Assembly: GCA_013177825.1 (NCBI GenBank)
Contig: JABLXX010000006.1
Coordinates: 124,001-188,000 of the forward strand
Source of the DNA: Syntrophaceae bacterium
GTDB lineage: Bacteria; Desulfobacterota; Syntrophia; Syntrophales; PHBD01
Length of the DNA stretch: 64,000 nt
Reading direction: 5' to 3'
Below are positions 40,002 to 58,068 of this stretch, in pieces. Both the position numbers and the translations under genes were made by a program. Within the stretch, counting starts at the first letter, position 1; every line of letters begins with the position of its first letter. The notes under the pieces are model-generated. The model was given only the letters and a program-made list of their open reading frames with translations. It had not been told where the DNA came from and did not search any database.

Positions 40002-40046
40002 CTGAATTTTGTAACGCTGTCTTAACCAATTTTCGGCGGTGCTGCA

Positions 40047-40723: not shown

Positions 40724-40726
40724 GAG

Positions 40727-42976
40727 ATGATGGAACAGACGTACACGGCGAAACAGGTCGCAGAGATCGTCGGCGCATCACGGGTCACCATCCTGCGCCG
40801 GGCTAAGAAGGAAAACTGGACCTTTGTTATCAAGAACGGCAAGGGCGGCCCTCAAAACGAGTACCCCCTCGCATCCCTCCCGGCCGACATCCAGGAGGCC
40901 ATTATTAATAAGGAAGGCGCCCGCCCGGAACTGCTCCCTGTCCTGGCGCCCACGGCTGCGGCCAAGGCGGTCGAGGTTCTCCGGCAAGAGGGAAGCCCGG
41001 CGCCGGCGCCGATGGAACTGCCCACCTTGACCCAGGCCCTGACGGAGAAGCGCCCCTCCTGGACCCCCGAGACGGCCATCAGTGAACAGGATCTGCAGAA
41101 TGAGCGGGTCCGGAACATCCTCGCCATCCTCCGGGAGGCGGAGACGGTCCCCCGAATCTGGACAAAGGGCAAGCGCAAGTGGATCGAGGCTGTCGCCTTC
41201 AAGCACGGCGTCACCTGGCAGGCGATCTACCGCTGGATGAAAAAGTACGACCAGCGGGGCATCGCCGGCATCTGCCACCGGAAATCATCGAAGGACCAGC
41301 CCCGGAAGTGGTCCCCGGAGGCGGTGGACTTCTGGATCTCCCTCTGCGCGAAACGGGAGCACCGAGCCATGAAGCGCCGGGACCTGTACGATATCCTGGT
41401 GGTCGAGGCAACACGCCGAGGCTGGCGGATCGGCGGGTATGAATCCGCCAACTGGTGGTTCGAGAAAAGATGGAACCCTTTGATGGAGGCCATGCAGAAG
41501 GGCGGCCTCCGGGCTCTGGACAACGTCCTGCCCCCGGTCCTCCGGGATTATTCCGACCTGGCCCCCTTCGAAATCATTGTCGGCGACCAGCACCGTTTTG
41601 ACCGCTGGGTGGTGGACGAGGAGACCGGCGAGGTCTACCGACCGGAAGGCTACCTCTGGCAGGATCTCCGCACCCGGGTCATCTACGGCGCCGCGGTCGA
41701 CCGCCGGTACGACGCCTGGCTGATCGGCCTGGCACTCCGGATCGGTGTGGCCTGCTACGGGGCCTTCACCAGCGTCTACACCGACAACGGCAAACCCGAG
41801 TGCTCGAAGTTCCTGACGGGGATCCTGGCAAACCTCCGCTCCCTGGGGATGGAATGGGAACGCACCTCCGAGGTCATGATGGACGTCCTGGACCTGGACG
41901 GGGAGGACATCGCCCCGAACATCATCTTACCGGGGACTCACCGGAAGGCCGTCGTCAAGAACGCCAAGGCAAAGATGATCGAGAAGTCCTTCGACAACCT
42001 GGAGACGATCATGGCCAGCCGCCTGGCCCTCCCCGGGCACACGAAACGCCTCACCGACGACATCCACGCCCAGGACATCGACCACCAGGAGGCTCAGGCC
42101 CTGGCCAAGGCGGGCAAGCTCCTGACAGCCCGGGAATTTGCCCTGGCACTGTATAAGGCCTGCGACCACTACAACCGGAAGAAGACCCATCGGGGTGTCC
42201 TCCGGGAATGGTCCTGGAAGCCGCGACCGAAAGAGGCCACCCCCTATGACTGCCTGAAGGCCTGCTATGAGGAAGGATGGCGCCCCCGGATGATCTCCGC
42301 CGAGGCGGCGGACCTGATCTTCCTGGCCCGGGGCAGCCGGACCGTCCACATGGGCCGGATCGCCTTCGACAACGATTTCTACGAACACGACGCCCTCCTG
42401 GAACTCCACAAGGAGAAGGTCGACCTTCGGTACAACCCCATGACGATGGACGAGCTCCACGTCTTCCGGGGAGGCCGATACCTCTGCACCGCCGTCCCGG
42501 TGGAGCGGTCCAGCATGAAGGACATGGATCTGGCTGCCCGGAAGATCGCCGAGAAGCGGGAACGGCGTAAACGCTTCGCCGAGGAGTTCAAGCGGATCTC
42601 CTCCCTGGCCCCGGACTTCCGGGAATACTCCAAGGTCCCCGAGATGGAACGGGCGGTGGCGATCATCGGCGAGGACCGGAAGCGCCGGGCCATTGAGCAG
42701 AAAGAATTCCACCGGCCCCTGAGCCAGGAAGAGCTCGACCGGGCAGTCGAGCGGATGGAGCAGGGGGTCCCCCTGCCGGCCAAGGCATCGAAACCCCTGC
42801 CGGGCCGTCCGACCTACTTCCTGGACGACTTCAGCCGGTTCGAATGGATCATGAACTTCCTCCAGGCCGGGGGCACCCTGGCGGAGGAGGACGAGGCCTT
42901 CCGGACCCGTTACATGGCGGGTCTCACGGAAGGACAGCGGGACTATTGGGACTCTTACGTTTCTTATGGAGGCTGA
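40727..42976 (+). CDS. Mu A-type DDE transposase
   Basis: 749 residues. The N-terminal winged-helix (TAKQVAEIVGASRVTILRR) and following helical domains bind ends and enhancer. The RNase H-like core has a credible triad: Asp287 in VGDQHRFD, Asp353 in YTDNGK and Glu419 in MIEKSF. The C-terminal region, ending ...DYWDSYVSYGG, would contact MuB. It carries out replicative transposition of the phage genome. It overlaps nothing and runs directly into MuB (next base). Confidence 0.93.
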   Translation: MMEQTYTAKQVAEIVGASRVTILRRAKKENWTFVIKNGKGGPQNEYPLASLPADIQEAIINKEGARPELLPVLAPTAAAKAVEVLRQEGSPAPAPMELPTLTQALTEKRPSWTPETAISEQDLQNERVRNILAILREAETVPRIWTKGKRKWIEAVAFKHGVTWQAIYRWMKKYDQRGIAGICHRKSSKDQPRKWSPEAVDFWISLCAKREHRAMKRRDLYDILVVEATRRGWRIGGYESANWWFEKRWNPLMEAMQKGGLRALDNVLPPVLRDYSDLAPFEIIVGDQHRFDRWVVDEETGEVYRPEGYLWQDLRTRVIYGAAVDRRYDAWLIGLALRIGVACYGAFTSVYTDNGKPECSKFLTGILANLRSLGMEWERTSEVMMDVLDLDGEDIAPNIILPGTHRKAVVKNAKAKMIEKSFDNLETIMASRLALPGHTKRLTDDIHAQDIDHQEAQALAKAGKLLTAREFALALYKACDHYNRKKTHRGVLREWSWKPRPKEATPYDCLKACYEEGWRPRMISAEAADLIFLARGSRTVHMGRIAFDNDFYEHDALLELHKEKVDLRYNPMTMDELHVFRGGRYLCTAVPVERSSMKDMDLAARKIAEKRERRKRFAEEFKRISSLAPDFREYSKVPEMERAVAIIGEDRKRRAIEQKEFHRPLSQEELDRAVERMEQGVPLPAKASKPLPGRPTYFLDDFSRFEWIMNFLQAGGTLAEEDEAFRTRYMAGLTEGQRDYWDSYVSYGG

Positions 42977-43666
42977 ATGAAAAACGAATTTATCGACACG
43001 GCGAACGTCAACAAGTTCCGGTCCCTCTGCCAGGAGATGGAGGATTCCTCCTCCCTGGCGGGTCCGTCCCTGGCGATGGTCACCGGCCCGGCGGGGCGCG
43101 GAAAGACGGAGGCGGCCAAACACTACGCCGTCCATTCCAGCGCGGTCTACATCCCTCCCTTGAATACCCGGACCCCGGCGATGGTCCTCCGGGAGATCTC
43201 CTTCGAGCTGGGAAAGGTCCGGCCGGTCCGGTCCGAGGCCTGCCTGGCCGTCATCGGCGAGGAGATGGCCAAGGAACGCCGCCTGATCTTCATCGACGAG
43301 GCGGATCTCCTTCCCATGTCCATTCTGGAGATGCTCCGGAACCTGAACGAGCGGTACGCCTGTCCCCTGGTCCTGATCGGCGAGGACGAGCTGAAGGGGA
43401 AGATCGAGTCCCGCCGGCGCCTGGCCAGCCGGATCCGCCGGCGGATGGAGTTCACCCCGGTGACCCAGCAGGACGTGGCCTTCTTCTTCAAGCGCTGCCT
43501 GGAGCTGAAACTGACGCCCGACGTGGCGGCCCTGATCCACAAGCATGGCCGGGGCGACTGGCGGCCGGTCCTGACGGCGGCCATCGGCGTCGAGCGGGCG
43601 TTGAAGGCCTCGGGTCTCGATGAATGCACCCTGGATATGGCGAAAGATGTCCTCCGGAACGCCTAA
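42977..43666 (+). CDS. MuB-like transposition target ATPase
   Basis: 229 residues. AAA+ motifs: Walker A GPAGRGKT (about residues 37-44) and Walker B LIFIDEADLL. Sensor-like RLASRIRRRMEF follows. MuB polymerises on target DNA and activates MuA; this is shorter than Mu's own protein (312 residues), lacking the N-terminal DNA-binding appendage. Starts immediately after the muA stop. Confidence 0.88.
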   Translation: MKNEFIDTANVNKFRSLCQEMEDSSSLAGPSLAMVTGPAGRGKTEAAKHYAVHSSAVYIPPLNTRTPAMVLREISFELGKVRPVRSEACLAVIGEEMAKERRLIFIDEADLLPMSILEMLRNLNERYACPLVLIGEDELKGKIESRRRLASRIRRRMEFTPVTQQDVAFFFKRCLELKLTPDVAALIHKHGRGDWRPVLTAAIGVERALKASGLDECTLDMAKDVLRNA

Positions 43667-43673
43667 GACAGGC

Positions 43674-44150
43674 ATGGCCGGCCGCATGCGGGAATGGATG
43701 AGGAACCGCCGAGGCCCCTTCACGAAAAAGCAGATCTGCGACGGCATGGACGTTCCCCGGGGCAAGGACCGCGACCAGGTCCAGAAGGCCCTCCGAGACT
43801 TTGCCCGCCGCGGGGAGATCGCCGTTGTTCATGACAAACATATTCGGCGACAAACTGCGACCCGGTGGCGCTTTGTGGCCGGTGTCCGTCTGAAGGCAAA
43901 GCCGGGAGACAACAAGGACAAGATCCTCAAGGCCATGCGGATGATCAGTTTCCAGGAATCCTTCGCCGTTTCAGACATCGAACGGATGACCGGAGCCGGC
44001 CGGAGCCATATCGACAAGCTCGTGAGCCGTCTCCTCCAGGAAGGCCACTTGAGACGGGAAGGCTTCCGCGCCCGATCCTCCAGTTACGGCCGGGAAGCCC
44101 TGTACCGGGTCGTCGACACGAACCGTTTCCGCCTGGAGGTCATGGAATGA
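43674..44150 (+). CDS. phage protein with two winged-helix segments
   Basis: About 158 residues if starting at the ATG at 43674; an alternative ATG at 43647 overlaps MuB. The first half has KKQICDGMDVPRGKDRDQVQKAL, the second SDIERMTGAGRSHIDKLVSRLL, both DNA-binding-like. It may regulate early phage functions. The stop overlaps the GemA start. Confidence 0.6.
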   Translation: MAGRMREWMRNRRGPFTKKQICDGMDVPRGKDRDQVQKALRDFARRGEIAVVHDKHIRRQTATRWRFVAGVRLKAKPGDNKDKILKAMRMISFQESFAVSDIERMTGAGRSHIDKLVSRLLQEGHLRREGFRARSSSYGREALYRVVDTNRFRLEVME

Positions 44151-44635
44151 ATGCCGCGACGATCCCCGGGACGACCTTCCCCTTCCCTATTCACGAACAG
44201 AAAGGACCACCACCCATCCGGTCGGATGCCCAGGCGAAGCAACGTCGGGGGCTCCTGGCCAAGATCCACATCGCCCGGAAGGAAATGGGGCTCAACGAGG
44301 GAGAGTACGAGATGATCCTCCGGGCCTTCAAGGTCTCCACGGCGGCGGATCTTACACTTCAGCAGTTGGAAGACCTGGTGAAGCTCTTGAAGCACTACGG
44401 CTGGAAACCCGTCAAGACGCGGCACCCCGCCGGCCGGGAGGAGCACATCGAGGCCCTGCGATCCCGCTGCCTGGAGCTGGCCGGAGAGATCCAAAACGGG
44501 GAGAAACGCCTGGCGGGCCTGGCGGAGCGGATTTGCGGGACCGGGCAGCTTGCCTGGTGCCGGGACGCCGGGAAGCTGGAGAGGCTCCTGGCCGTCCTGG
44601 GGAAGATCAAGGAAACAGAATCGGCGACAACCTGA
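44147..44635 (+). CDS. GemA-like (Mu gp16) regulatory protein
   Basis: 162 residues. The middle motif AKIHIARKEMGLNEGEYEMIL with VSTAADLTLQQLEDLVKLLKHYGW is the conserved gp16/GemA domain. In Mu GemA influences host supercoiling and gene expression. ATG overlaps the preceding stop. Confidence 0.82.
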   Translation: MNAATIPGTTFPFPIHEQKGPPPIRSDAQAKQRRGLLAKIHIARKEMGLNEGEYEMILRAFKVSTAADLTLQQLEDLVKLLKHYGWKPVKTRHPAGREEHIEALRSRCLELAGEIQNGEKRLAGLAERICGTGQLAWCRDAGKLERLLAVLGKIKETESATT

Positions 44636-44655
44636 CTGGAAAGGGAGGTTTCATC

Positions 44656-45054
44656 ATGGCAGAGAATCTCATCAATACCCCGGACAACCGGATGCGTCTC
44701 CTGGGTAAGCTGACGGAGCATATCGGCGCCCACAATGCCGTGGGCATGGCGGAGTTGTACGAGGCGGTCTTCGGCCGTCCCTGGAACCACAAGATCAACG
44801 ACACCCGGGATCTGCGCCATCTCGTGACGATCTTGCGGGAAGAAGGGGTTCCCATTTGCTCCGTGTCGTCCCAGAGCGGCGGAGGGTACTACCTGGCCGC
44901 GGCGGGAAGCGAGCTGACGGACTACCTCCGCCGTGGGGAACGGCGGGCACTGTCCATCTTGTCCAGGAACGCCAGGATCAAGAAGATCTCTCTCCCCAAC
45001 TACCTGGGGCAGATCAAGCTGGGCATGGAGGGGAATCGTGAAGAAGCAGCATGA
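44656..45054 (+). CDS. winged-helix phage protein
   Basis: 132 residues from the ATG at 44656 (GGGAGG seven bases upstream). The sequence shows helix-turn-helix-type elements (AELYEAVFGRPWNHKINDTRDL) and a wing (VSSQSGGGYYLAA). It resembles small wHTH proteins near Gam in Mu-like phages. A recognisable Mor activator is not found here. Confidence 0.6.
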   Translation: MAENLINTPDNRMRLLGKLTEHIGAHNAVGMAELYEAVFGRPWNHKINDTRDLRHLVTILREEGVPICSVSSQSGGGYYLAAAGSELTDYLRRGERRALSILSRNARIKKISLPNYLGQIKLGMEGNREEAA

Positions 45055-45505
45055 ACCGATCGAGAAGGTCCGGAGCGAGGCCGAGGAACTGCTGCTGGCC
45101 ATCGCCGTCTCACAGACGGGCATCGACCTCTTGACGGAACAATTTAATGGGGAAGTCGAACGCCTGAAGGCCCACTACGAAGGGATGATGGCCCCGATGA
45201 AGGCTACAGTGGAACGGGACGGGAAAGCCCTCCAGGGCCTCATGAAGGCGAACAAAGCGGCCCTCTTCGATGGGACGGACGTCGTCCGCCTGCTCAATGG
45301 CACCCTGATCCGAGAGTCCGGCGACAAGGTGACCATTCCCAAGACCGCCTTGGCCAAGTGCGAAGAGTTGGGATTCACGGATGTGATCAAGACCGTCAAG
45401 AGCCTGGACCGCGATGCAGTCGAGAAATGGCCTGACACGAAGCTCTTCCTGATCGGCGCCACACGGAAGCCCGGCGAGAAATTTGAGTACGAGCTGAAAC
45501 GATGA
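45038..45505 (+). CDS. gam: host-nuclease inhibitor Gam
   Basis: 155 residues from a GTG at 45038, chosen because the coding frame begins within the end of the previous gene and GGGG lies just upstream. The Gam fold (VSQTGIDLLTEQFNGEVERL; KVTIPKTALAKCEELGF) is clear. Mu Gam binds DNA ends and shields them from exonucleases, a bacterial relative of Ku. Confidence 0.85.
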   Translation: MKKQHEPIEKVRSEAEELLLAIAVSQTGIDLLTEQFNGEVERLKAHYEGMMAPMKATVERDGKALQGLMKANKAALFDGTDVVRLLNGTLIRESGDKVTIPKTALAKCEELGFTDVIKTVKSLDRDAVEKWPDTKLFLIGATRKPGEKFEYELKR

Positions 45506-46071
45506 AATTTCGGTGCCCTTTCTGCTCCAGGGAATGCGACTACTTGGAGATCCGGCTGGAGGAAGATCTCCTGGCCATCATCAAGATGCAGACAGTCTTC
45601 GGGATGCATGCCCTCCTCGTCTGGGCCTACACGGAACTCTTCAGCATCCGGCCTATGCGGTCCCGGGCAAAGAAGACCAGGGTCCTGCAGGAAGAAATGA
45701 AGAACCTCTTCCATGCCGAAGCCTTCACCTACAACCGCCGCACATACCGGATCAGCACTCAGGGGATTGCCGAGGCCCTGAACATCATCGTCCACCGCCA
45801 TTTTGACGACCCTCTAGAAAACCACAACTACCTGAAGAAGATCATGATCTCGATCGCTGAACGGGAGGCCCGGGAGGCTCGACGATCGGCAGAGCAGGGA
45901 CTGAAACAGAGGGAGGAAAGGCAAAGAATAGGGGGGGAACGAGAGGCAGGCAGTCACGTTACCCATGCCTTTGCCGTCAGCAGGGAGATGCCTCCGGCTA
46001 ACCTTACGTCGGAACTGATTGAAGAGAACAAACAGCGGGTAAAGGACCTATTGGAGTCTTTAGGTGGTTAA
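45502..46071 (+). CDS. phage protein of unknown function with zinc ribbon
   Basis: 189 residues. CPFCSREC at the N-terminus suggests a metal site. A central part (VFGMHALLVWAYTELFSIRPM) and a long charged helix follow. Start overlaps the Gam stop. No family recognised. Confidence 0.6.
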   Translation: MKFRCPFCSRECDYLEIRLEEDLLAIIKMQTVFGMHALLVWAYTELFSIRPMRSRAKKTRVLQEEMKNLFHAEAFTYNRRTYRISTQGIAEALNIIVHRHFDDPLENHNYLKKIMISIAEREAREARRSAEQGLKQREERQRIGGEREAGSHVTHAFAVSREMPPANLTSELIEENKQRVKDLLESLGG

Positions 46072-46283
46072 TGATGGGGCTTCGAAATATCGTTACGGCC
46101 AAAGAGGTGAATGGTAACACCCATGTCGCCATCAATCCTGCCAGCCCTCCTCTTTCTTTACCTGAAATCCGCTGCCCTCGCTGCCATCGACTACTTATGA
46201 AGGGCGAAGTCAAGAGGGTGGAAATAAAATGTCCCAAATGTGGGTGTCTCTTGAGTCTCCCGAAAGCACCATATTGTCGATAA
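46071..46283 (+). CDS. Com-like zinc-ribbon RNA-binding protein
   Basis: 70 residues. The core IRCPRCHRLLMKGEVKRVEIKCPKC is very close to Mu Com (IRC-x2-C, LLF/LLM, IEIRCPRC). Mu Com binds the mom mRNA and opens its ribosome-binding site. No mom-like gene follows here; instead the fluoride-type cargo starts. Start overlaps the preceding stop. Confidence 0.75.
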   Translation: MMGLRNIVTAKEVNGNTHVAINPASPPLSLPEIRCPRCHRLLMKGEVKRVEIKCPKCGCLLSLPKAPYCR

Positions 46284-46343
46284 CTTTGATGTGTAGGGAT
46301 CGTCAGACTCGAACGCCTCTAGGGAAGAATTCATTTAAGATAC

Positions 46344-46373
46344 TTGACAAGTTCTCGTGAATTCAGATAAAGA
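46344..46373 (+). promoter_or_regulatory. promoter of the fluoride cargo operon
   Basis: TTGACA (46344-46349) is followed at 17-18 bases by an AT-rich -10 region (ATAAAG/TAAAGA, 46367-46373). Transcription from it would begin at about 46379, just before the riboswitch aptamer at 46381, so the cargo likely has its own promoter, independent of phage early transcription. Confidence 0.6.
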
Positions 46374-46380
46374 TATACAT

Positions 46381-46491
46381 GGTGATGGAGTTCACCGAGA
46401 ACCGCCCTTGGGGCTAATGACTCCTGCTTGAACGATGTGTCCAGCAGGGGGAAAGGCTCCTGCAGGACACGAATCCTGGAGGAGCTTTTTT
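46381..46491 (+). promoter_or_regulatory. fluoride riboswitch (crcB motif) with translational platform
   Basis: The aptamer at 46381-46427 matches the crcB consensus: GGTGATGGAGTTCACC (stem GGTGA/TCACC), GCCCTTGGGGC hairpin, then TAATGACTCC, whose ACTCC (46420-46424) can pair with GGAGT (46387-46391). Downstream, GCAGG (46444-46448) can pair either with the aptamer's CCTGC or with CCTGC at 46459-46463; GCTCCT (46456-46461) can also pair with AGGAGC (46480-46485), hiding the ribosome-binding site. The alternatives give a clean off/on switch in front of the dynamin-like gene. Confidence 0.88.
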
Positions 46492-48162
46492 ATGCCTTCT
46501 GTCGAACAGACCATCTCCGCCACCTCGCCCAGTTTTCTTGAGATTCTCGTTCCCATTCGCGAGGCTGTCTCCCGTTTTCACCTAGTCTCCCTTGAGCGGA
46601 CTCTTGACATCTGCGAAGGCCTTGCTGCGAAAAGTCCTATCATCGATGTAGCCGTCTTTGGTCAGTTCAAGGCAGGAAAGAGTTCCTTTCTCAACAGCCT
46701 TCTCGGTCGCCGTTTGTTGCCTGTGGGCGTCATTCCGGTGACAACGGTTATCACCCGCATTATGCATGGTCCCGAGGAGCGAGCTGTCGTGTCTCATTTC
46801 GATGGGACTCGGACAGAGATTTCCCTCGATTGTCTTGAGGAGTTCACTTCCGAAGCGAAAAATCCAAACAATGAAAAAGACGTGGCGGTTGTTGATATCG
46901 ATCTGCCCTCGCTGGACAGATATTGGGGACTCCGTTTTGTGGATACACCGGGTCTGGGGAGCGTTTTTAAATACCACATGGAGACCTCGGAGAACTGGCT
47001 TCCGGAAGTGGGATCTGCGCTCTTGGCCATCAGCGCAGATCGGCCTCTCTCAGATCAAGACCTAGTTCTGATTCGAGAAGTTCTCCGGTACACGCCCGAA
47101 ATCGTTCTGATCCTTACAAAGGTGGACCTACTACTGCCAGCTCAACAGGACGAGGTGGTGCGCTTTTTCCAAGCAACCTTGAAAAAGGAACTAAACCGCG
47201 AATTTCCAATTTATCTCTTCTCCAACCGCCAGGATACGGATCTTCTCAAGAACAGGCTGGAAACAGAACTCCTCACTCCCTTGGCTAGGAATCGAGACTC
47301 CGAGTTTATCCGGATCCTCCATTACAAGATCCGGTCCCTTGCAGGAAGCTGCTCGAGTTACTTAGACATCGCCCTCAAAACCTCCCTCCGTGCCGATGAG
47401 GACCGCCAGGCCCTCCGGGACCAGATTCTTGGGGAGAAATCCAACATCACCCAGATCGACGAGGAGTTGATGATCATGACCCGGGAGACCTGCCGCTACA
47501 CCCGGGTTAATATTGACAAGTATCTGAACCAGTTCAAAAGACCCCTTAAAGAGAAGCTTGCCGCCCGACTCGCGAACGATATGGCCAGCTGGCATGGGAA
47601 CCTCTGGAAACTGTCGCGCCGATATGAGGAGTGGCTTCGTGACGTCCTGACAGAGGAACTGGAAGAGATCTCCCAGAGAGAAAACCGGAATTTCTTCGGC
47701 ACGCTGCTCAAGACTCAATCAGCCCTGGATCGATATTTGAAGTCCTTCCGGGCCATTTTGGAGGGTAACATAGAGCGGGTCCTGGATGTCCGGATGGCCA
47801 CGGCGCAGTGGAACATCGAGGTAGACGAGCCCTCCCGGCCGGACATCCAGGTAGGGCATACCTTCCAGTTCAACTACGACCTTCTGTGGTTCCTGATTCC
47901 TATGGTCCTGTTCAGGAGGTTCTTCGAACGCCATTTTCTAGCCCAGATTCCCAAACAGGTAGAGGTGAACTTCTCCCGCCTGTCGAATTCCTGGGAGGAA
48001 CGTATAAATCGAACCATTGAGGACATGAGAAAGCAGGCCTCCCGCTACATCCGGGAGGAGATCGAAACCATCGAGGGACTCCTGTCTCGGACGGAGGACC
48101 AAACGGAAACGATCCAAGGTCTTATCAATGCAATCGACAGAAATGAGGGACCCGCATGCTGA
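46492..48162 (+). CDS. dynamin-like GTPase
   Basis: 556 residues from the ATG at 46492 (GGAGG at 46478-46482). GTPase motifs: P-loop [14 protein letters not shown] (about residues 55-68), a switch region VTTVIT, G3 VDTPGLGS and G4 TKVD. A long helical region with the pattern of dynamin stalks follows, plus a hydrophobic patch [15 protein letters not shown] that could insert into membrane. Bacterial dynamins remodel or repair membranes; this one is directly under a fluoride riboswitch and is followed by enolase. It may protect membrane integrity under fluoride, but that is inference. Confidence 0.85.
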
Positions 48163-48200
48163 ACGATGGGTTCCATCATCATCAGAACGGAGAAAACGCC

Positions 48201-49499
48201 ATGAACCAGAAGATCAAAGCCATCAATGCTATTGAAATCCTCGATTCTCGAGGAAACCCTACCATCCGGACCTACGTTACTCTGACTGGAGGCATCACCG
48301 CATCCGCATCTGTTCCCTCTGGGGCATCCACCGGGGAAAACGAAGCCATTGAACTCAGAGATGGTGGGCGGACCCGTTACGGAGGCAAAGGAGTCCTCAA
48401 GGCGGTTGCCCATGTGAAGGAACTTATCGCACCAATTCTGATTGATATGGACCCCACTCAGCAGGCGGAGATTGATCGCCTCATGATCCTCTTGGATGGG
48501 ACTACGAATAAGGCAAAGCTGGGGGCCAACGCGATCCTGAGTGTTTCTATGGCTGTCGCTCGGGCGGCCTCGATGGCGGCGGGCCTTCCCCTCTATGCCT
48601 ACATGGGCGGTTTCGGGGCGCTGCGCCTGCCTGTCCCCATGATGAACATCCTCAATGGTGGCAAGCATGCCGACAACAGCGTCGACTTCCAGGAATTCAT
48701 GATCATGCCAGTGGGCGCTCCTTCCTTTAGTGAGGCCCTTCGTTATGGAGCTGAGACGTTTCATGCCCTGAAAGGCATTCTCGCCGCGAAGGGATACGCA
48801 ACCAACGTCGGCGACGAAGGTGGATTTGCACCGGACCTGAAAAGTAACGACGAGTCATGTGATGTGATCGTCGAGGCCATCTGGGAAGCCGGTTACAAGC
48901 CGGGCAAAGACATTGCCATTGCACTCGATCCAGCGGCCAGTTCTTTTTATGAGAACGGCATATACAACCTATTGAAGTCGGGGCAGGGAAAGAAAACAAG
49001 TCGGGATATGATCACCTTTTATGACAAATGGATCAGTAAATATCCTATCGTTTCCATTGAGGACGGACTGGCGGAGACCGACTGGGAAGGATTCCGTCAG
49101 CAGACGGCCACGCAGGGAGACCGGATCCAAATCGTGGGGGACGACATCTTCGTCACCAATCCCATGTTCGTACAGCAGGGCATTCATGAGAAGACGGCCA
49201 ACGCGGTCCTGATCAAGCTGAACCAGATCGGCACCATTACAGAGACGATGGAAGCGATCAGCCTATGCCGGAAAGCCGGTTGGGGTTATGTAATATCTCA
49301 TCGTTCCGGTGAAACGGAAGATACGTTCCTGGCCGATTTTGCCGTTGCGATGGGAGGAGGACAGATCAAAACAGGGTCTGCCTGCCGCAGCGAGCGAATT
49401 GCAAAGTATAACCGCCTTCTAGAAATCGAGACTGAACTCGGGAAGGCGGCGATTTTCGAAAATCCACTGAAGGGAGGTGGCGTGAAGGACAAAACCTGA
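48201..49499 (+). CDS. eno: enolase (phosphopyruvate hydratase)
   Basis: 432 residues from the ATG at 48201 (GGAG upstream; an earlier in-frame ATG at 48156 would add an unusual tail). Catalytic motifs are intact: [10 protein letters not shown] loop, [57 protein letters not shown] (Lys) and [14 protein letters not shown]. It converts 2-phosphoglycerate to phosphoenolpyruvate. Enolase is a classical fluoride target (fluoride/phosphate/Mg complex), so an extra copy in a fluoride-regulated operon would restore glycolytic or gluconeogenic flux. As a second eno it is probably cargo, not the housekeeping copy. Confidence 0.95.
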
Positions 49500-49548
49500 G
49501 AACGGAAATCCGCAGAGATTCAAAAGAAGGGGCGGTAATTTCCATGTC

Positions 49549-49657
49549 GGGTGATGGGGTCCACCGTAACTGCTGCTTTGATCAGCTGATGACTCCTGCC
49601 AGCCGAACTTTTTCAGAGAAAGAGCGAGGCAAAACGCATTCTAATTGGCGAAAGGAG
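49549..49657 (+). promoter_or_regulatory. second fluoride riboswitch (crcB motif)
   Basis: GGGTGATGGGGTCCACC, TAACTGCTG, CAGCTGATGACTCCTGCC follow the crcB consensus almost base for base. In the fluoride-bound state ACTCC (49592-49596) is held in the aptamer. Otherwise CTCCT-GCC (49593-49600) can pair with GGC (49647-49649) and the AGGAG (49653-49657) of the antiporter ribosome-binding site, closing it. It is the second such switch in one operon. Confidence 0.9.
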
Positions 49658-49665
49658 CATCAATC

Positions 49666-50814
49666 ATGGCGGTGGATAGCATCTGGCTTACCTCTGCGCT
49701 TTGGATGGGCTTGGCCCTGTTGTCATCACTCATCTCCATCCGGGTAGGCATTTCCGTTGCACTCATCGAAATCTTCGTCGGTTTTCTCGCGGGAAACATT
49801 GTTGGTCTCAGCATAACTCCATGGGTCAATTACCTGGCGGGCGTTGGCTCCATCATGCTGACATTCTTGGCAGGGGCTGAAGTAGATCCCCAAGTGATCC
49901 GAAAACATTTCGGGTCGAGCATTGGGATCGGAATGGCAGGATTTCTTATCCCATTTTCCGGAATCCTTCTATTCAGCCGTTATGCTCTTGGGTGGACCTG
50001 GCCGCAGTCGCAAATTGCCGCTCTTGCCTTGTCAACAACGTCCGTTGCGGTTGTTTACGCCGTCATGGTGGAAACGGGACTCAATCAGACCGAACTGGGC
50101 AAGATCATTCTGGCGGCATGTTTCATTAACGACCTGGGAACCGTTGTCGTCCTCGGCGCTCTTTTCGCCGATTACGATGTCTGGCTGGCTGTTTTCATAC
50201 TTGTCACAGCGGCAGCCATGTGGGGAATCCCGAGATTTCTTCCCTGTTTTTTCCGCAGGGTTGGGGATAGGGTCAGTGAACCGAGAATCAAGTTCATTTT
50301 TGTCCTGCTTTTTCTACTAGGAGGGCTGGGTGACTTGGCCAAGTGTGAAGCGATTCTGCCGGCCTATTTGATCGGCATGGTTCTGGCGCCCTTCTTTCTG
50401 AAGGAGAAGGAACATGCCAAGCGATTGCGGGCCGGTACTTTCGTGTTCCTCACGCCCTTTTATTTTCTGAAGGCAGGCTCGTTCGTAAAGTATTCTGTTG
50501 TTCAATCTGCGTTCGTCCTGATCCTGATCTTTCTGGCCGTAAAAATGCTGACGAAGTTCATCGGCGTCTGGCCGCTCACCAGAAGTTTCCGGTTTAAGTC
50601 CCGTGAAGGGACTTACACCACGCTTATGATGTGCACTGGTCTCACGTTCGGAACGATTGCCTCCCTGTTCGGTCTGAACAACGGAATTATCAGCCAGGAC
50701 CAATACACGATCCTTGTTGCGGCCGTGATCGGAAGCGCCCTGCTTCCCACTCTTGTCGCACAGAAGTGGTTTCAACCCCCTATGAATGGTTTGGAGGAAA
50801 AGACCGATGTATAA
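49666..50814 (+). CDS. CPA2-family cation:proton antiporter (KefB/NapA-like)
   Basis: 382 residues from the ATG at 49666, with the AGGAG that the riboswitch controls eight bases upstream. About eleven TM helices can be drawn (SALWMGLALLSSLISIRVG; GVGSIMLTFLAGAEVD; CFINDLGTVVVLGALF; FVFLTPFYFLKAG). The conserved ND-like pair in FINDLGT typical of sodium/proton or potassium/proton exchange is present. No C-terminal TrkA-N domain is attached. Related genes are known riboswitch-linked partners; it may export Na or H, or aid F- removal indirectly. Confidence 0.85.
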   Translation: MAVDSIWLTSALWMGLALLSSLISIRVGISVALIEIFVGFLAGNIVGLSITPWVNYLAGVGSIMLTFLAGAEVDPQVIRKHFGSSIGIGMAGFLIPFSGILLFSRYALGWTWPQSQIAALALSTTSVAVVYAVMVETGLNQTELGKIILAACFINDLGTVVVLGALFADYDVWLAVFILVTAAAMWGIPRFLPCFFRRVGDRVSEPRIKFIFVLLFLLGGLGDLAKCEAILPAYLIGMVLAPFFLKEKEHAKRLRAGTFVFLTPFYFLKAGSFVKYSVVQSAFVLILIFLAVKMLTKFIGVWPLTRSFRFKSREGTYTTLMMCTGLTFGTIASLFGLNNGIISQDQYTILVAAVIGSALLPTLVAQKWFQPPMNGLEEKTDV

Positions 50815-51226
50815 AAAAATATTGCACGGAATGGATGGATCGGAAGGGGCTTTCAAAGCGCTAAAGGAAGCTATAGACATTGCAAGACTGCATGGAGCAG
50901 AACTGCATTCCGTAAGCGTTCAGGAGGTTCCCCACTATGCCGGTACCATTGGAGAGGTGATGGAAGAGGAAGCTTCTTCCAAGGCCTATTTCAACGAAAT
51001 TGCTGCTGGCGCACGGGAGATAGCTCAGGAGGCCGGAGTGGATCTTCATGTTCACGTCATTGTCGGGCACGAGGCCAAAACGATCATCGAAATGACGAAG
51101 AAATTCAAATTTGATCTCCTTGTTCTAGGATTTATGGGCCGTTCGGCGTTGTATGACCGGGTCATGGGAAGCACCTGCCAGAACCTAGTTCGCCTCGCGC
51201 CCTGCTCGGTCCTTGTCGTAAAATAA
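50807..51226 (+). CDS. universal stress protein (UspA family)
   Basis: 139 residues; start at 50807 overlaps the antiporter stop, with GGAGG upstream. Walker-like nucleotide motif is LVLGFMGRSALYDRVMGSTCQNLVRLAPCSVLVV. It begins KKILHGMDGSEGAFKAL, typical Usp. Usp proteins are often co-regulated by fluoride riboswitches. Its tight coupling suggests a role in supporting the antiporter. Confidence 0.9.
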   Translation: MYKKILHGMDGSEGAFKALKEAIDIARLHGAELHSVSVQEVPHYAGTIGEVMEEEASSKAYFNEIAAGAREIAQEAGVDLHVHVIVGHEAKTIIEMTKKFKFDLLVLGFMGRSALYDRVMGSTCQNLVRLAPCSVLVVK

Positions 51227-51238
51227 GGAATTCATCAG

Positions 51239-52105
51239 GTGAAAGTCGTTGCGAATCCCGGGTGTATGTCGGGAAGCGAGCTATGCAATGATTTGATTGT
51301 ACATTACATTCGGGAGAGACGATGTACTGGTGGGGGATATTGCTTCTATCGACTCCCGGAACCGAATGGATCAGATACTTATCACGCCTTGTCCTCGCTT
51401 CGCTTGCTGGATCGACTTGAACAAGATGATGAAACAGCAGCTTTTCTTCTGGATCGCCAGACGTCTAATGGTGCCTATGAGAGCATATTCCAAGCGTATT
51501 ACTGCCTCAAAAGCCTCTCAATCCTGGGCCTTGAACCCAAAACGGATCCCTCTACTTACATCCTTCAGCATTTGCGGGCCTATGACGTCGATTGCCTACC
51601 AGTTGGAGTGACATCCATCTTCTATAAGTTAATGACGGTTATTGAACTGCGACAGCTACAAAGACTATCCGTAACGTTTCCACAGAAGGAGTCCCTTACG
51701 GATTTCCTGTTCCGGTACCAGCAGATAGACGGGGGGTTCGGTTATCCTCACTCGACACTGGTTGAAACATACCAAGCCACTCGGATCCTTGTTGGACTTA
51801 ATTATCCGGTAACTTCCTTAGGAGTGGATTGTTTTCTTGCGGCCTGTGAAGATCCGGTTTTTGGGTTCATAAATATGCCTAGGGCGCACTCAGCCTTCTT
51901 GGAACATGTGTCTGCGGGTATCGGTCTTTCAGAGTTTTTAAACCGGGAGGTCAAGTATGGAGACATCATCAGCACGTTTATACGAGCTTGTCAGAGCAGG
52001 AATGGAGGTTTTTCCCGAGCGACTCATGCGGGTATTGCATCCCTTGAATATACCCATATGGCCGTCGACGCCCTTGCAATAATCTCAAGATTAAGACTAG
52101 GGTGA
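51239..52105 (+). CDS. prenyltransferase/terpene-cyclase-toroid-like protein
   Basis: 288 residues from a GTG at 51239 (AAGGA upstream). There are about four repeats of the toroid type: GGGYCFYRL...YHALSSL, SNGAYESIFQAYYCLKSL, DGGFGYPHSTLVETYQATRIL and NGGFSRATHAGIASLEYTHMAVDAL. These resemble beta-subunits of protein prenyltransferases or squalene-cyclase-type units. There are no clear catalytic DDxD motifs. Function is unknown; lower GC than the genes before it. Confidence 0.6.
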   Translation: MKVVANPGCMSGSELCNDLIVHYIRERRCTGGGYCFYRLPEPNGSDTYHALSSLRLLDRLEQDDETAAFLLDRQTSNGAYESIFQAYYCLKSLSILGLEPKTDPSTYILQHLRAYDVDCLPVGVTSIFYKLMTVIELRQLQRLSVTFPQKESLTDFLFRYQQIDGGFGYPHSTLVETYQATRILVGLNYPVTSLGVDCFLAACEDPVFGFINMPRAHSAFLEHVSAGIGLSEFLNREVKYGDIISTFIRACQSRNGGFSRATHAGIASLEYTHMAVDALAIISRLRLG

Positions 52106-52254
52106 AAAGAATATTATACAGTTAAGATATAGGACTTGTAATTATTAATACAATATATGAACAAAAAGAGAATGTAGATTAACATATAAACGAGTATCAA
52201 ATTTAAAGCTTTTCTTAACCAACCGGCGTTTTATTACAATAAAACAGAAAACGC
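52106..52254. other. AT-rich gap after cargo
   Basis: About 150 bases of low GC without coding potential between the cargo and the candidate sRNA promoter. No specific signal seen. Confidence 0.5.
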
Positions 52255-52416: not shown

Positions 52417-52611
52417 ATGGCCACAGACGACACGATCGACATGCTTTACCAGGCCCGACTCAGCGCCCGCATTGCCCGGGATCATTTGGCCGGATCCGCG
52501 GTCTACACCCGGGAGCAGGTGCTGGCAGAGTTGGAGGACGCGGGAACCATCCTGACGTACCTGATCCTGAACCATAAGCACGGGGGGAATGATGGCCAGC
52601 CGCAATTCTGA
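52417..52611 (+). CDS. small phage protein
   Basis: 64 residues, MATDDTIDMLYQARLSARIA, mostly helical. It starts immediately after the terminator with no Shine-Dalgarno, and its end overlaps the endolysin start. Possibly a lysis-region accessory; unknown. Confidence 0.45.
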   Translation: MATDDTIDMLYQARLSARIARDHLAGSAVYTREQVLAELEDAGTILTYLILNHKHGGNDGQPQF

Positions 52612-53068
52612 AGACCTGACACCGGCCCTGCAGGGGAAGTTGCGGTTCTTCGATGAGCGGATGAAGGCGGCGGGGATCCCCTACCGCCTTACCTGCACAG
52701 CCAGGACGGTCAAGGAGCAGATCGCCCTGTACGCTCAGGGCCGGGAGGCACTGCCCAAAACGAACTGGCTCCGGAAACTGGCCGGGCTGCTCCCCATTAA
52801 ACTGTTCGAGAACCGGAAGAAAGTCACCTGGACCCTGGCTTCAAAGCACATCGTGGATCTGGACGACGGGAATCCGGATAACGACAAAGCCCGGGCCTTC
52901 GATATCGCCATCGAGAAGGACCGGCAGCCCTCCTGGGATCTCAAGGCCGACGTCAACGACAATGACATCCCCGATTACGAGGAGGCCGGCCGGATCGGGG
53001 AATCCGTCGGCCTTAAATGGGGTGGCCGCTTCCGGAAGCCCGACTACGTCCATTTTGAGCTGCCCTGA
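52589..53068 (+). CDS. M15-family peptidoglycan peptidase (endolysin)
   Basis: 159 residues. The sequence has the VanY/D-Ala-D-Ala carboxypeptidase pattern: TCTARTVKEQIALYAQG, the metal-site region SKHIVDL...ARAFDIAI, and the late DYVHFEL. The His and Asp ligands are in place. No signal peptide, so it would need a holin. It is the first clear lysis gene of the late region. Confidence 0.78.
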   Translation: MMASRNSEDLTPALQGKLRFFDERMKAAGIPYRLTCTARTVKEQIALYAQGREALPKTNWLRKLAGLLPIKLFENRKKVTWTLASKHIVDLDDGNPDNDKARAFDIAIEKDRQPSWDLKADVNDNDIPDYEEAGRIGESVGLKWGGRFRKPDYVHFELP

Positions 53069-54189: not shown

Positions 54190-54496
54190 AATCGACCTGA
54201 AGAAGGTGCAGCGCGAGAGCACCCGCTGGCTGATCCTGGCGACCCTCGACGCGGCTCGGCCCATCGGCGCCAACGAGCGGCTGATCCTGTCCACGGTCCA
54301 GGAGGTGATCCGGGACGTGACCCTCCTCGATATCCGCCGGGAGCTCGACTACCTGGACCACCGGAAACTCCTGGAGATCAAGGGAAAGGACACCTGCCAC
54401 GGCTGGACCGCCGAGCTGACCCGGGACGGCATCGACGTCGTCGAATACACCGTGGAATGCGACCCCGGCATCGCCCGGCCGAAGAAGTGGTGGTGA
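54182..54496 (+). CDS. Mu gp26-like winged-helix protein
   Basis: 104 residues. A compact wHTH (RLILSTVQEVIRDVTLLDIRRELDYL) plus a wing ending in KKWW. It overlaps the previous gene. Matches the gp26 place in the Mu late region; unknown role. Confidence 0.65.
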   Translation: MSEIDLKKVQRESTRWLILATLDAARPIGANERLILSTVQEVIRDVTLLDIRRELDYLDHRKLLEIKGKDTCHGWTAELTRDGIDVVEYTVECDPGIARPKKWW

Positions 54497-54498
54497 CG

Positions 54499-55020
54499 AT
54501 GCCCGCGCGATCGAAGATCACGAAACTGCCCCCGGAGGTGAAGGCCGAACTCGACCGGCGCCTGATCGGCGGCGGCTTCGCCGATTACACCTCCCTGGCC
54601 TATTGGCTGGCCGAGCAGGGCTTCGAGATCTCCCGTTCGGCGATCCACCGCTACGGCCAGGAGTTCGAGGAGAAGCTCTCGGCCCTCAGGATCGCCACGG
54701 AACAGGCCCGGGCCATCACCGAGGCCGTGGGTGATGAAGAGGGCGTCATGGGCGACGCCCTGACCCGGCTCTGCCAGGAGAAAGCCTTCCAGGTCCTGGT
54801 GGAGATGCAGTCCCTGGATCCGGAAAGCATCGACTTCAACAAGCTGACCGTGGCGGTGGCCAAGCTGAACAAGGCCTCCGTGGCCCAGAAGAAGTGGATG
54901 GCGGAAGTCCGGTCCAAGGCCCGGGACGCAGCGGACGACGTGGTCAAGACGGCCAAGCAGGGCGGGCTCTCTGAAGAGAAGGCCGAGGAGATCCGCCGGC
55001 GGATCCTGGGGATCGTATGA
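54499..55020 (+). CDS. terminase small subunit-like protein (gp27, DUF3486)
   Basis: 173 residues from the ATG at 54499. N-terminal helix-turn-helix (LPPEVKAELDRRLIGGGFADY; EISRSAIHRYGQ) and a helical C-terminal part (ELAR-type rest, SLDPESIDFNKL) follow the DUF3486 pattern. It would recognise phage DNA during packaging. Its stop overlaps the next start. Confidence 0.82.
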   Translation: MPARSKITKLPPEVKAELDRRLIGGGFADYTSLAYWLAEQGFEISRSAIHRYGQEFEEKLSALRIATEQARAITEAVGDEEGVMGDALTRLCQEKAFQVLVEMQSLDPESIDFNKLTVAVAKLNKASVAQKKWMAEVRSKARDAADDVVKTAKQGGLSEEKAEEIRRRILGIV

Positions 55021-56564
55021 CGACAGGCGCCCTCCAGAATGATTTCGACCAGGCCCGGCAGGGGACGGGGATCCTCCTTCCCTACCAGGGCCGGTGGGCG
55101 GCCGATCGCGCCCCCGTCAAGGTCATGGAGAAGTCCCGCCGGATCGGGATCTCCTGGGGCGAGGCGGCGGACTCCACCCTCTATGCCTCGGAACGGGGCA
55201 AGGGGGAGAAACGGAACGTCTGGTACATCGGTTACACGAAGGACATGGCGCTCGAATTCATCAACGACTGCGCGAATTGGGCCAGGGCCTACAACCTGGC
55301 GGCCTCCGGGATGGAGGAATACGAGGAGGTCGATCAGGAGGAGTACGAGGGCGTCGTTCAGGAGAAGAAGATCCTCGCCTTCCGGATCACCTTCCAGTCG
55401 GGCTGGCGGATCACGGCCCTTTCCAGCCGGCCTTCGAACCTTCGCGGGAAGCAGGGCCGGGTGATCATCGACGAGGCGGCCTTCCACGACGACCTGGCGG
55501 GGCTCCTGAAGGCGGCCCTGGCGCTTCTTATCTGGGGAGGCGAGGTCCGGGTCATCTCCACCCACAACGGCGACGACAATCCCTTCAACGGCCTGGTCCA
55601 GGACATCCGGTCCGGCCGGAAGCCCTACAGCCTCCACCGGGTGGACTTCGACGAGGCCCTGGCGGCCGGCCTGTACCACCGGATCTGCGAGGTCCTGGGG
55701 CGGCCTTGGTCTCCCGAGGCCGAGGCGGCCTGGCGCCAGGAGGTGATCGACTTCTATGGCGAGGATGCCGAGGAGGAGCTGTTCTGCGTCCCCAGCCAGG
55801 GGAGCGGCACCTTTCTGACCCGCGCCCTGATCGAGACCTGCCTGTCCGCCGAGATCCCGGTGATCCGCTACGAGCAGCCGAAATCCTTCGCCGAGCTGGC
55901 GGACCACCTCCGCTATGCCGAGGTCCAAGACTGGTGCGAGGAGACCCTGCTGCCTCTGCTCAAACTCCTGCGGTGGGAGCGCAACTCTGTGGTGGGCGAA
56001 GACTTCGGCCGGACCGGCGACCTGTCCGTCTTCATTCCTCTGGAGGAACAACAGAACGCCAACTGGCGGGCCGTCTTCCACCTGGAGCTCCGGAACATGC
56101 CTTTCCAGCAGCAGGAACAGATCCTCTACTACATCTGCGACCGCCTCCCGCGGTTCCGATACGGCGCCTTCGACGCCCGGGGAAACGGCCAGTACCTGGC
56201 CGAACGGGCCATGCAGCGCTACGGCGCCTCCCGTATCGCCCAGGTCATGCTGACGGAGCCCTGGTACCGGGAGAACATGCCCCGTTACAAGGCGGCCTTC
56301 GAGGACCGGGCCATCCTCCTGGCGAAGGATGCCGATGTCATCGAGGACCACCGGGCCTTCAAGGTGGTCCGGGGCGTGGCGAAGCTGCCGGAGACGAAGA
56401 TGAAGGGCCAGGACAAAAAGCAGCGCCACGGCGACTCCGGCATCGCCGGGGCGATGGCCTGGCACGCCGTCCATGCCGAATGGGGCGGGGACATCGAGTT
56501 CGAGTCCACCGGCGTCCGACGCACGACCGCCGGGACCAGCATGGCTAACTACATGAGGCAGTGA
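55017..56564 (+). CDS. terminase large subunit (gp28)
   Basis: 515 residues. ATPase part with a Walker A-like EKSRRIGISWGEA (about residues 37-49) and Walker B RVIIDEAAF; nuclease part with GEDFGRTGDLSVF and FDARGNG. It packages the DNA into heads. The order small/large/portal is as in Mu. Confidence 0.9.
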   Translation: MTTGALQNDFDQARQGTGILLPYQGRWAADRAPVKVMEKSRRIGISWGEAADSTLYASERGKGEKRNVWYIGYTKDMALEFINDCANWARAYNLAASGMEEYEEVDQEEYEGVVQEKKILAFRITFQSGWRITALSSRPSNLRGKQGRVIIDEAAFHDDLAGLLKAALALLIWGGEVRVISTHNGDDNPFNGLVQDIRSGRKPYSLHRVDFDEALAAGLYHRICEVLGRPWSPEAEAAWRQEVIDFYGEDAEEELFCVPSQGSGTFLTRALIETCLSAEIPVIRYEQPKSFAELADHLRYAEVQDWCEETLLPLLKLLRWERNSVVGEDFGRTGDLSVFIPLEEQQNANWRAVFHLELRNMPFQQQEQILYYICDRLPRFRYGAFDARGNGQYLAERAMQRYGASRIAQVMLTEPWYRENMPRYKAAFEDRAILLAKDADVIEDHRAFKVVRGVAKLPETKMKGQDKKQRHGDSGIAGAMAWHAVHAEWGGDIEFESTGVRRTTAGTSMANYMRQ

Positions 56565-56565
56565 C

Positions 56566-58068
56566 ATGGCCGAAGAGACGAAACGCCCGCCTGTCGTCAC
56601 CGACGAAGTCGCCACCATCGAGAAGGACATCGACATCTTCGCCGGCTGGCTGAAGCGCCTGGAGAACCCGGATCCGGTCCTCCGGACCGAGGCGGCCGGA
56701 AAGGGGCTCAAGCTCTACGACGAGGTGGACCGGGACGCCCACGCGGGAAGCGTGCTGCAGCAGCGGATCCTCGCCGTCGTGGGGAAGGAATGGGAGATGA
56801 TTCCAGCCAAGTCCGCCCGAAAACAGGGCCGGCCGGCTGCCACCTCCCAGGAGCAGGTTGTCGCCGATTTTGTTTCGGAGGTTCTGGAGGGCTGCAACTT
56901 CGACCAGGCCCGCCAGGAGATCCTGAAGGCGGTCCTCTACGGCTTCTTCGGCCTCGAAACCCTCTGGGAGCCGAAGGACGCCTCGATCGTCATCCGGAAG
57001 ATCCTGGGAAAGCACCCTCGGCGCTTTGTCTTCACGCCGGAGCGGGAACCGCGCCTCCTCACGACCGACAACATGGTCGACGGAGAGGCCCTTCCGGAGC
57101 GGAAGTTCGTGTTCCTCACCTGGGGCGACTCCGACAATCCCTATGGCCGGGGCCTTGGCCAAAAACTCTGGTGGCCCGTTTGGTTCAAGAAGCACGGCGT
57201 CAAGTTCTGGCTCGTCTTCCTGGAGAAGTTCGGTATGCCCACAGTGAAGGGCAAGTACCCGGCGGGGACGGGTCCCGAGCAGAAGAAGGCGCTCCTGGAG
57301 GCCATCGAGGCGATCCAGAACGACACGGGGCTCACCATGCCCGACACGATGGACGTGGAGTTCCTGGAGGCCTCCCGGGCCGGTACGGTGACCCACGAGC
57401 AGCTCTGCAATTACATGGACCGCCAGATCTCGAAGGCCGTCCTGGGACAGACGGCCTCGACGGAGGGCACCCCCGGAAAACTTGGCAACGAGGAATCCCA
57501 GGAGAACGTCCGCCAGGAGCTGATCGAGGCCGACGCAGATCTCCTGGACGCCTGCCTGAATGAGACCCTGGTCCGCTGGATTGTCGACTTCAACTTCCCC
57601 GGGACGGCGGCCTACCCGAAGCTCAAGACCTACGCCGCGGCCAAGCCCGACCTGAAGCAGCAGTCCGAGATCGACAAGACCCTCGTCGTGGACATCGGCC
57701 TCCCCGTGGGGACGGCCTACTTCTACGAGACCTACGGGATCCCGGCACCCCAGGAGGGCGAGGAGACCGTCGGCAATACAAAGAAAGCGGCGGCCAAAAA
57801 GGAAGAGAAGGCCGCCTTTGCGGAGAAGGCGGGACGGCTCTTTCCCGACCAGGATGCCCTGGACCGGGCCGTGGAGGGGTTGTCCCTCCAGAGCCAGGCG
57901 GAGGGGATCCTGAAGCCCCTGGTGGAGATGATCCAGGCGGGGAGCAGCTACGAGGAGATCCTGGAGAGCCTTGAGGAGGCCTATCCGTCCCTGAACGACC
58001 AGGCCCTGGAGGACATGCTGGCCCGGGCCATGTTCGCGGCCGAGACCTGGGGGCGCCTGAATGCCTGA
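56566..58068 (+). CDS. portal protein (gp29, DUF935)
   Basis: 500 residues. Motifs such as LRTEAAGKGLKLYDEV, WGDSDNPYGRGLGQKLWWPVWFKKHGVKFW and TASTEGTPGKLG match DUF935 portals. It forms the ring at the head vertex. Overlaps the start of the MuF gene by 8 bases. Confidence 0.9.
   Translation: MAEETKRPPVVTDEVATIEKDIDIFAGWLKRLENPDPVLRTEAAGKGLKLYDEVDRDAHAGSVLQQRILAVVGKEWEMIPAKSARKQGRPAATSQEQVVADFVSEVLEGCNFDQARQEILKAVLYGFFGLETLWEPKDASIVIRKILGKHPRRFVFTPEREPRLLTTDNMVDGEALPERKFVFLTWGDSDNPYGRGLGQKLWWPVWFKKHGVKFWLVFLEKFGMPTVKGKYPAGTGPEQKKALLEAIEAIQNDTGLTMPDTMDVEFLEASRAGTVTHEQLCNYMDRQISKAVLGQTASTEGTPGKLGNEESQENVRQELIEADADLLDACLNETLVRWIVDFNFPGTAAYPKLKTYAAAKPDLKQQSEIDKTLVVDIGLPVGTAYFYETYGIPAPQEGEETVGNTKKAAAKKEEKAAFAEKAGRLFPDQDALDRAVEGLSLQSQAEGILKPLVEMIQAGSSYEEILESLEEAYPSLNDQALEDMLARAMFAAETWGRLNA

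Follow-up and report, generated by a model that had tools for sequence, protein, structure and literature searches.

A dynamin-like GTPase gene behind a fluoride riboswitch in a prophage-borne cassette of a Syntrophaceae bacterium

Why would a bacterium place a dynamin under the control of fluoride? The question is raised by a locus in the genome of a Syntrophaceae bacterium (GenBank assembly GCA_013177825.1, contig JABLXX010000006.1), where a gene for a dynamin-like GTPase follows a fluoride riboswitch. Reported targets of the crcB RNA motif include mutS and genes for K+ or Cl- transport and formate hydrogen lyase (excerpts of PMC2864571), those of the fluoride riboswitch include exporters, Na+/H+ antiporters, pyrophosphatase and enolase (excerpts of PMC11139923), and one described fluoride operon contains enolase and a universal stress protein, Usp (excerpts of PMC5533749). 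The words dynamin and GTPase are absent from the text of PMC5533749 and from the main texts of PMC2864571 and PMC11139923.

A literature search, judged by titles and the starts of abstracts, found no paper on the subject that joins the fluoride riboswitch (or crcB or fluoride) with a dynamin or GTPase; the search did not extend to the gene lists of the 2012 paper that founded the fluoride-riboswitch field, so an earlier listing under another name is possible. As far as searched, dynamins are a target family missing from the lists of the fluoride field.

The dynamin gene, its riboswitch and the cassette

The dynamin gene runs on the forward strand from an ATG at 46492 to the end of its stop codon at 48162 (556 aa); these coordinates were checked in the window, that is, the whole 64-kb stretch of DNA that was analysed, to which all positions refer unless a locus is named. 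Its product carries a dynamin-type GTPase domain, matching PF00350 (Dynamin_N) with an E-value of 7.7e-22 and 78.5 bits against a Pfam cut-off of 27. A fluoride riboswitch aptamer (crcB RNA motif, RF01734; 60.1 bits, E 3.6e-14) occupies 46372..46433 on the same strand and ends 58 nt upstream of the ATG, which bears out an earlier note on this DNA that had read the dynamin as standing directly under a fluoride switch. A second aptamer lies at 49541..49605 (+; 52.4 bits); both exceed the RF01734 gathering threshold of 34 bits, and these two copies are the only Rfam matches in the window.

Between the first aptamer and the gene lies a putative expression platform, a strong hairpin at 46451..46489 (+) and then a run of T (46486-46491), assigned from the computed fold of 46372-46495 (-53.2 kcal/mol, z -4.57). 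The ribosome-binding site of the dynamin gene, GGAGGAG at 46478-46484 (+), sits inside the 3′ arm of this hairpin, which could therefore both terminate transcription and mask the start site. An alternative-fold computation of the dynamin leader returned the terminator hairpin and no antiterminator alternative. We infer the direction of switching from known fluoride riboswitches: fluoride would stabilise the aptamer, the hairpin that serves as terminator and mask would not form, and the dynamin would be made together with the enolase encoded behind it. A script that counted terminator-like hairpins (37/67) missed the window's own, and its count was discarded.

The cassette continues in the order riboswitch, dynamin, enolase, riboswitch, CPA2 antiporter, Usp and prenyltransferase-like protein, all on the forward strand. 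The enolase gene (48201..49499, with the open reading frame listed from 48156; TIGR01060, 1e-193) is a second copy, the other lying on contig C17 of the source genome (G000; genomes, loci and contigs carry our serial numbers, prefixed G, L and C). The second riboswitch precedes a CPA2-type cation/proton antiporter (49666..50814; PF00999, 7.1e-40, and TIGR00932, 1.4e-27 but below its cut-off), followed by Usp (50786..51226; PF00582, 7.1e-32) and a prenyltransferase-type alpha-alpha toroid protein (51239..52105; PF00432, 2.8e-14), whose gene is present again in 11 of 81 loci compared.

The pairing in other genomes

The generality of the pairing was assessed in three sets of genomes or loci that overlap in some genomes. 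The first comprised 197 genomes, the source genome and relatives, searched with the dynamin protein and then with RF01734. Fifty of them hold 52 full-length homologues (≥500 bits), and 49 of the 52 are preceded, no more than 600 nt away, by a same-strand riboswitch, the median distance from riboswitch to homology match being 75 nt; here and in the phylum samples below, gaps are measured from the edge of the match and not from the start codon. The 197 genomes also gave 42 weaker matches (<62 bits), largely to dynamins of other kinds and to GTPases, and none of these has a riboswitch upstream (Fisher p 1.5e-23, a statistic that ignores the relatedness of the genomes), and this contrast rules out a chance Rfam match as the explanation of the locus. 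All 50 genomes with the dynamin contain a fluoride riboswitch somewhere; of the 147 genomes that lack the dynamin, 37 do.

The three full-length homologues lacking a riboswitch belong to G059, G187 (at a contig start) and G119. By eye, only an aptamer-like 3′ part is left upstream of the G059 dynamin (L086, 9940-10000), which has possibly lost its fluoride control with the decay of the aptamer.

For the second set, the best 80 of 142 relatives at named loci were scanned with a riboswitch model built from 32 riboswitches, themselves Rfam matches and many of them found before these dynamins. A riboswitch lies within 300 nt in 69 of these 80 best loci; in seven the dynamin follows another gene of a riboswitch operon. 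At the remaining four, the 3.5 kb upstream yielded no riboswitch; the aptamer of one of them has decayed, and another is near a contig end. The relatives come mostly from Syntrophales-type genomes, others from Spirochaetes and Bacillota, and one from Bacteroidetes, at which no riboswitch was found. Among the Bacillota is an isolate, Syntrophomonas palmitatica JCM 14374, whose group I dynamin (the family of this locus, defined below) lies 2.3 kb downstream of a riboswitch and apparently shares an operon with enolase.

The third set, a profile search of 297 genomes from the window's own phylum and 249 from that of Syntrophomonas, distinguished group I, the dynamin family of this locus (≥400 bits), from a group II of proteins of about 600 aa that score 130-400 bits. 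Linkage counts here are lower bounds: one of the two riboswitch tables extends to about E 5e-10, plus one row for G185, and the other to E 2.9e-4, while control matches reach down to about 33-36 bits. In the own phylum a riboswitch directly precedes at least 18 of 22 group I genes and at least 24 of 33 in group II, with at least three and at least one more, respectively, within 4 kb; at least one of 38 controls (<60 bits) is linked. The corresponding figures for the Syntrophomonas phylum are, for group I, at least 1/5 direct and at least 4/5 within 4 kb; for group II, at least 7/17 direct and at least six more; for matches of 60-130 bits, at least 1/13; and for controls (<60 bits), at least 1/16. 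Among the riboswitch matches listed, 9/33 group II genes of the own phylum and 10/17 of the Syntrophomonas phylum are not direct, and both samples include members with no riboswitch nearby.

A quick tree of 70 of the 133 sequences (lengths 480-800, group I represented by a chosen subset) recovered group I as one clade (SH-aLRT 100) and group II as another (87); their union has no firm support and some branches are long. By these counts, a second, distant dynamin clade is likewise riboswitch-linked.

Fluoride control of the dynamin is thus strongly supported by sequence, and comparative genomics makes the regulatory finding firm, with a pairing that extends well beyond this locus. The earlier note had advised a search for other crcB-dynamin pairs in other genomes and had made its reading depend in part on finding one. 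If crcB denotes the RNA motif (RF01734), such pairs exist, directly in the 69 named loci and again in the Desulfobacterota-type and Bacillota samples. If it denotes the gene, the link does not hold: PF02537 has no match in the source genome, and a pairing of crcB gene and dynamin was rejected.

Companion genes, exporters and the phage setting

Of the 138 riboswitch matches in the 197 genomes, 62 have a dynamin-family match directly behind them. The first gene behind the other 76, entered by hand on the basis of Pfam families, is most often a CPA2 antiporter (38, one a fragment), followed by a MutS-type ATPase pair (5), an AAA protein (5), a HEAT/zinc-ribbon protein (3), a Na+/H+ exchanger other than CPA2 (2), enolase (2), a prenyltransferase-like protein (2), an unknown family (2), DUF6062 (1), CRCB (1) and a H+-pyrophosphatase (1); 14 riboswitches have no assigned first gene. 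Enolase, antiporters, Usp, MutS and H+-pyrophosphatase are known fluoride-response genes, and their presence supports the placing of the dynamin in a true fluoride regulon. None of the partners that co-occur with the dynamin speaks for the membrane in particular. In the comparison of 81 loci, at six of which a longer overlapping frame was chosen and no dynamin ORF picked, a CPA2 gene is present in 20; at many loci the riboswitch is followed by the dynamin only and the neighbourhood lacks a transporter, and antiporter genes are usually preceded by a riboswitch of their own.

Several further arrangements were observed. An AAA ATPase, DUF6062 proteins, a 144-aa family that matches nothing in Pfam, the HEAT/zinc-ribbon protein, an MFS transporter and the prenyltransferase-like toroid protein recur in the fluoride regulon (L108, L111, L112, L117, L090 and others). 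ATPases with MutS domain V occur in pairs, which often follow a separate riboswitch, at L130 (2354-5487) and in L084, L108, L112, L152, L157 and L158, and the membrane H+-pyrophosphatase is the first assigned gene behind a riboswitch in G032 (L284, 256-2331, reverse strand). In L108, L110, L120 and L138 a gene weakly matching NifU and a GGGtGRT-family gene follow the dynamin directly, with no second riboswitch between, and divergent fluoride riboswitches stand back to back, heading two transcripts that run apart, at L085 (9525-9919), L125 (3795-4401) and L160 (9598-9862).

The crcB exporter is scarce in this company. Behind the riboswitches of the 197 genomes, CRCB was found directly in a single case (G020, 33 nt) and farther off in one more (G193, 1438 nt); PF02537 exceeds its cut-off in 20 of the genomes and PF00654 (CLC) occurs in 77, including the Voltage_CLC gene on contig C4 of the source genome (at 289839). 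Among the 50 genomes with a group I dynamin, many of them drafts, three have CRCB, 13 CLC and 36 neither: the group I dynamin usually occurs without crcB. The association between presence of the dynamin and absence of CRCB is not significant across the 197 genomes (p 0.42) and crcB is rare in the whole order, so that a replacement of exporters is a suggestion only.

The cassette lies in a Mu-like prophage. Upstream are a phage repressor (38756..39508, -; phrog_4, 2.3e-55), a MuA-like transposase (40727..42976, +; phrog_310, 1e-78; PF09299), a MuB-like DNA transposition ATPase (42977..43666, +; phrog_296, 4.6e-43) and, as the phage gene before the cassette, a match to phrog_2161 (45502-46071). 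The first identified phage gene after it encodes an endolysin (52589..53068, +; phrog_465, 3.5e-20), and the small and large terminase subunits and the portal protein follow at 54457..58068 (+; phrog_426, 3e-45; phrog_2, 3.6e-32; phrog_113, 1.3e-139). Two IMG/VR phages have MuA relatives of 93% and 85% identity. The flanks of one related phage, L319, align at 80-93%, matching up to 46247 and again from 52242, and the other, L318, aligns over 38769-46243 and from 52248 onward (80-84%). Between these flanks L319 holds about 1.2 kb with an acyltransferase (11881-13077) and L318 4.7 kb encoding type I restriction-modification proteins (12904-17651), with no fluoride riboswitch found by Rfam in the regions examined. 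Because the flanks are shared and the contents differ, 46248..52241 (+) is a variable cargo slot; that the cassette is a fixed part of this phage group was rejected, as both related phages lack it.

A chromosomal counterpart exists in the same genus. The stretch 46343-51921 is 79.5% identical to, and collinear with, a locus in G001. At the syntenic place in the source genome, where the flanks are 90-97% identical to G001, a scar is left that consists only of the riboswitch and the last 39 aligned dynamin codons. The scar lies at L063 11686-11920 (G000, contig C6, near 78686-78920), and its riboswitch looks intact (53.4 bits). Since the cassette has been deleted to a scar in its own chromosomal place and the phage copy lies elsewhere, the phage-borne cassette is probably foreign to this lineage, and it is the only intact copy found. 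No relative of the dynamin was found in viral_contigs, the phage collection gave one weak partial match of 27% identity, and phages and plasmids together gave only partial matches of at most 33% identity.

What the dynamin may do

Motifs G1-G4 of the GTPase are intact: G57-K63, S65, T84 (G2), D151-G154 (G3, DTPG) and K210 and D212 (G4, TKxD) are identical in all 45 aligned rows. The AF2 model made from that 45-row alignment (pLDDT 82.5, pTM 0.70) shows four long helices (268-300, 319-364, 371-431 and 471-532), the predicted neck and trunk, after the GTPase head. The hydrophobic patch to which the earlier note had drawn attention is there: residues 464-474 contain a WFLIPM motif whose W466, F467, P470 and M471 are identical in 45/45 homologues, followed by R475, an arginine in 41 of 45 rows. 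Conservation and the helix boundaries of the model make D463-R475 (47878..47916, +) a candidate membrane contact. The motif, in the turn that links helix 371-431 to helix 471-532, is shorter than a transmembrane helix requires and is modelled with a local pLDDT of only about 62-64, so that the membrane insertion suggested in the earlier note is at most a possibility; its sequence suggests lipid contact. As predicted, the fold has all the parts of a bacterial dynamin, and its tip motif, hydrophobic and conserved, is what would be expected of a membrane-acting protein.

Its best Foldseek match in the PDB is IniA (6j72, 1.1e-18), the stress-induced mycobacterial dynamin with which it shares GTPase head, neck and trunk; BDLP (2.0e-16), SynDLP (7.8e-12) and the Campylobacter pair (1.0e-10) follow. 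VIA aligned 321 residues with mitofusin-1 (Z 23.8) and 489 with IniA (Z 22.2, 12.1 Å); the large rmsd to whole bacterial dynamins reflects either a real difference in trunk angle or an error of the model there. IniA too is made in response to a toxic agent and has a lipid-contact loop in its trunk, in which two basic residues are needed for lipid binding and hydrophobic ones less so (excerpts of PMC6715688). In the protein described here, R475 comes after the hydrophobic motif. IniA differs in being induced by drugs and not through a fluoride riboswitch, in having the partner IniC and in sharing just 15-16% identity over the fold alignment.

DynA of Bacillus is likewise a dynamin linked to membrane surveillance under stress (excerpts of PMC8844932), but it is a tandem protein, which this dynamin is not; model NF052648 for DynA (1187 profile positions) gives 37.5 bits where 1600 are needed. 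The PADLOC models for LeoABC yielded no full-length match (LeoA 27.5 bits, best stretch residues 46-72; LeoBC 19.3 bits). BDLP, SynDLP, the mitofusins and the Campylobacter pair share the fold, although this dynamin is usually a single gene; no second dynamin gene of the IniA/IniC or Campylobacter type lies beside it in the cassette, the next gene being enolase. We know of none of these four under a fluoride switch. In joining fluoride riboswitch, enolase and Usp on a mobile element, the cassette resembles the fluoride operon on genomic island GI3 of Enterobacter cloacae FRM, which has crcB, ppaC and gpmA, whereas this one is phage-borne, lacks crcB and carries dynamin and antiporter (excerpts of PMC5533749).

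On balance we consider it probable, by a modest measure, that the gene encodes a fluoride-induced, membrane-acting bacterial dynamin that is part of a fluoride-tolerance cassette. Our best guess at its task is to maintain or repair the membrane during fluoride stress. With the fluoride riboswitch directly before the gene, a full dynamin of predicted GTPase head, neck, helical trunk and conserved hydrophobic/basic tip would be made when fluoride is present, would assemble on the cytoplasmic membrane and would maintain it while HF enters and the proton gradient is dissipated. The CPA2 antiporter would help to balance pH and ions, and the spare enolase would replace the inhibited enzyme. The cassette now travels in a Mu-like prophage, as cargo that takes the place of the deleted chromosomal copy.

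The dynamin might instead be a scaffold or activator of transport, organising membrane zones or aiding the CPA2 antiporter or another efflux protein. Such a role would suit the frequency of CPA2 genes (20/81 loci; 38/76 riboswitches without a dynamin) and the finding, from the title of a study in the reference list of PMC6715688, that iniA is essential for the activity of an efflux pump, but it sits poorly with the many dynamin-only loci that have no transporter nearby and with antiporters that usually answer to their own riboswitch, and we regard it as unlikely. A further reading is that a housekeeping dynamin is inhibited by fluoride and that the cassette makes up for it with extra enzyme, as with enolase. 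GDP-metal-fluoride complexes mimic the GTPase transition state, and the cassette enolase really is a second copy. Fluoride regulons usually follow from the inhibition of metal-phosphate enzymes (excerpts of PMC11139923). In the source genome, however, no other full-length dynamin was found: its remaining PF00350 matches are short P-loop matches of 17.7-26.4 bits, and the second match to the dynamin protein is the 39-residue remnant. Another dynamin-like match in a frame of at least 550 aa occurs in only four of the 50 carrying genomes. With enolase duplicated and the dynamin not, this logic fits enolase and not the dynamin, for which we think it very unlikely.

CrfC-type dynamins bind the replication clamp, and a dynamin acting off the membrane, perhaps on the chromosome or on cell division while fluoride arrests the cell, would find some encouragement in the paired MutS-type ATPases that recur in the fluoride regulon and act on DNA in other families. 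The CrfC model NF007368 matches residues 53-106 alone, at 26.2 bits, nowhere near its cut-off of 1146, and the conserved WFLIPM motif suggests lipid contact; we hold such a role to be highly improbable. Least credible, to the point of being extremely improbable, is that the dynamin is the phage's own moron, altering lysis or excluding other phages with fluoride control incidental. It does occupy a prophage cargo slot that in a related phage holds type I restriction-modification genes, and DynA of Bacillus protects against phage (excerpts of PMC8844932), but the pairing with the riboswitch in most of the best named loci, the same-genus cassette in a chromosomal region syntenic with the host scar, and the lack of viral_contigs relatives and of more than one weak match in the phage collection all speak against it.

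If the dynamin is, as we favour, a fluoride-induced membrane protein, its membrane arm may matter more than export in most carrying genomes, in which no crcB exporter was found, and the question is raised of how bacteria without detected crcB survive fluoride. As far as searched, the fluoride field gains a new target family, and fluoride tolerance is seen as variable phage cargo. For most bacterial dynamins, to our knowledge, no physiological trigger has been identified. An ion-sensing RNA beside the gene marks the trigger, which makes the role of this dynamin testable with a cheap and specific inducer. More tentatively, and as a possibility that we rate somewhat below even odds, the two clades of dynamin, which span two phyla or more, may represent a recurrent, unrecognised arm of the fluoride response that, together with CPA2 antiporters, largely replaces exporters in low-energy Syntrophales-type anaerobes; the membrane would be tightened or resealed against HF and proton leak without any pumping of fluoride, and Mu-like phages could move the whole package between hosts.
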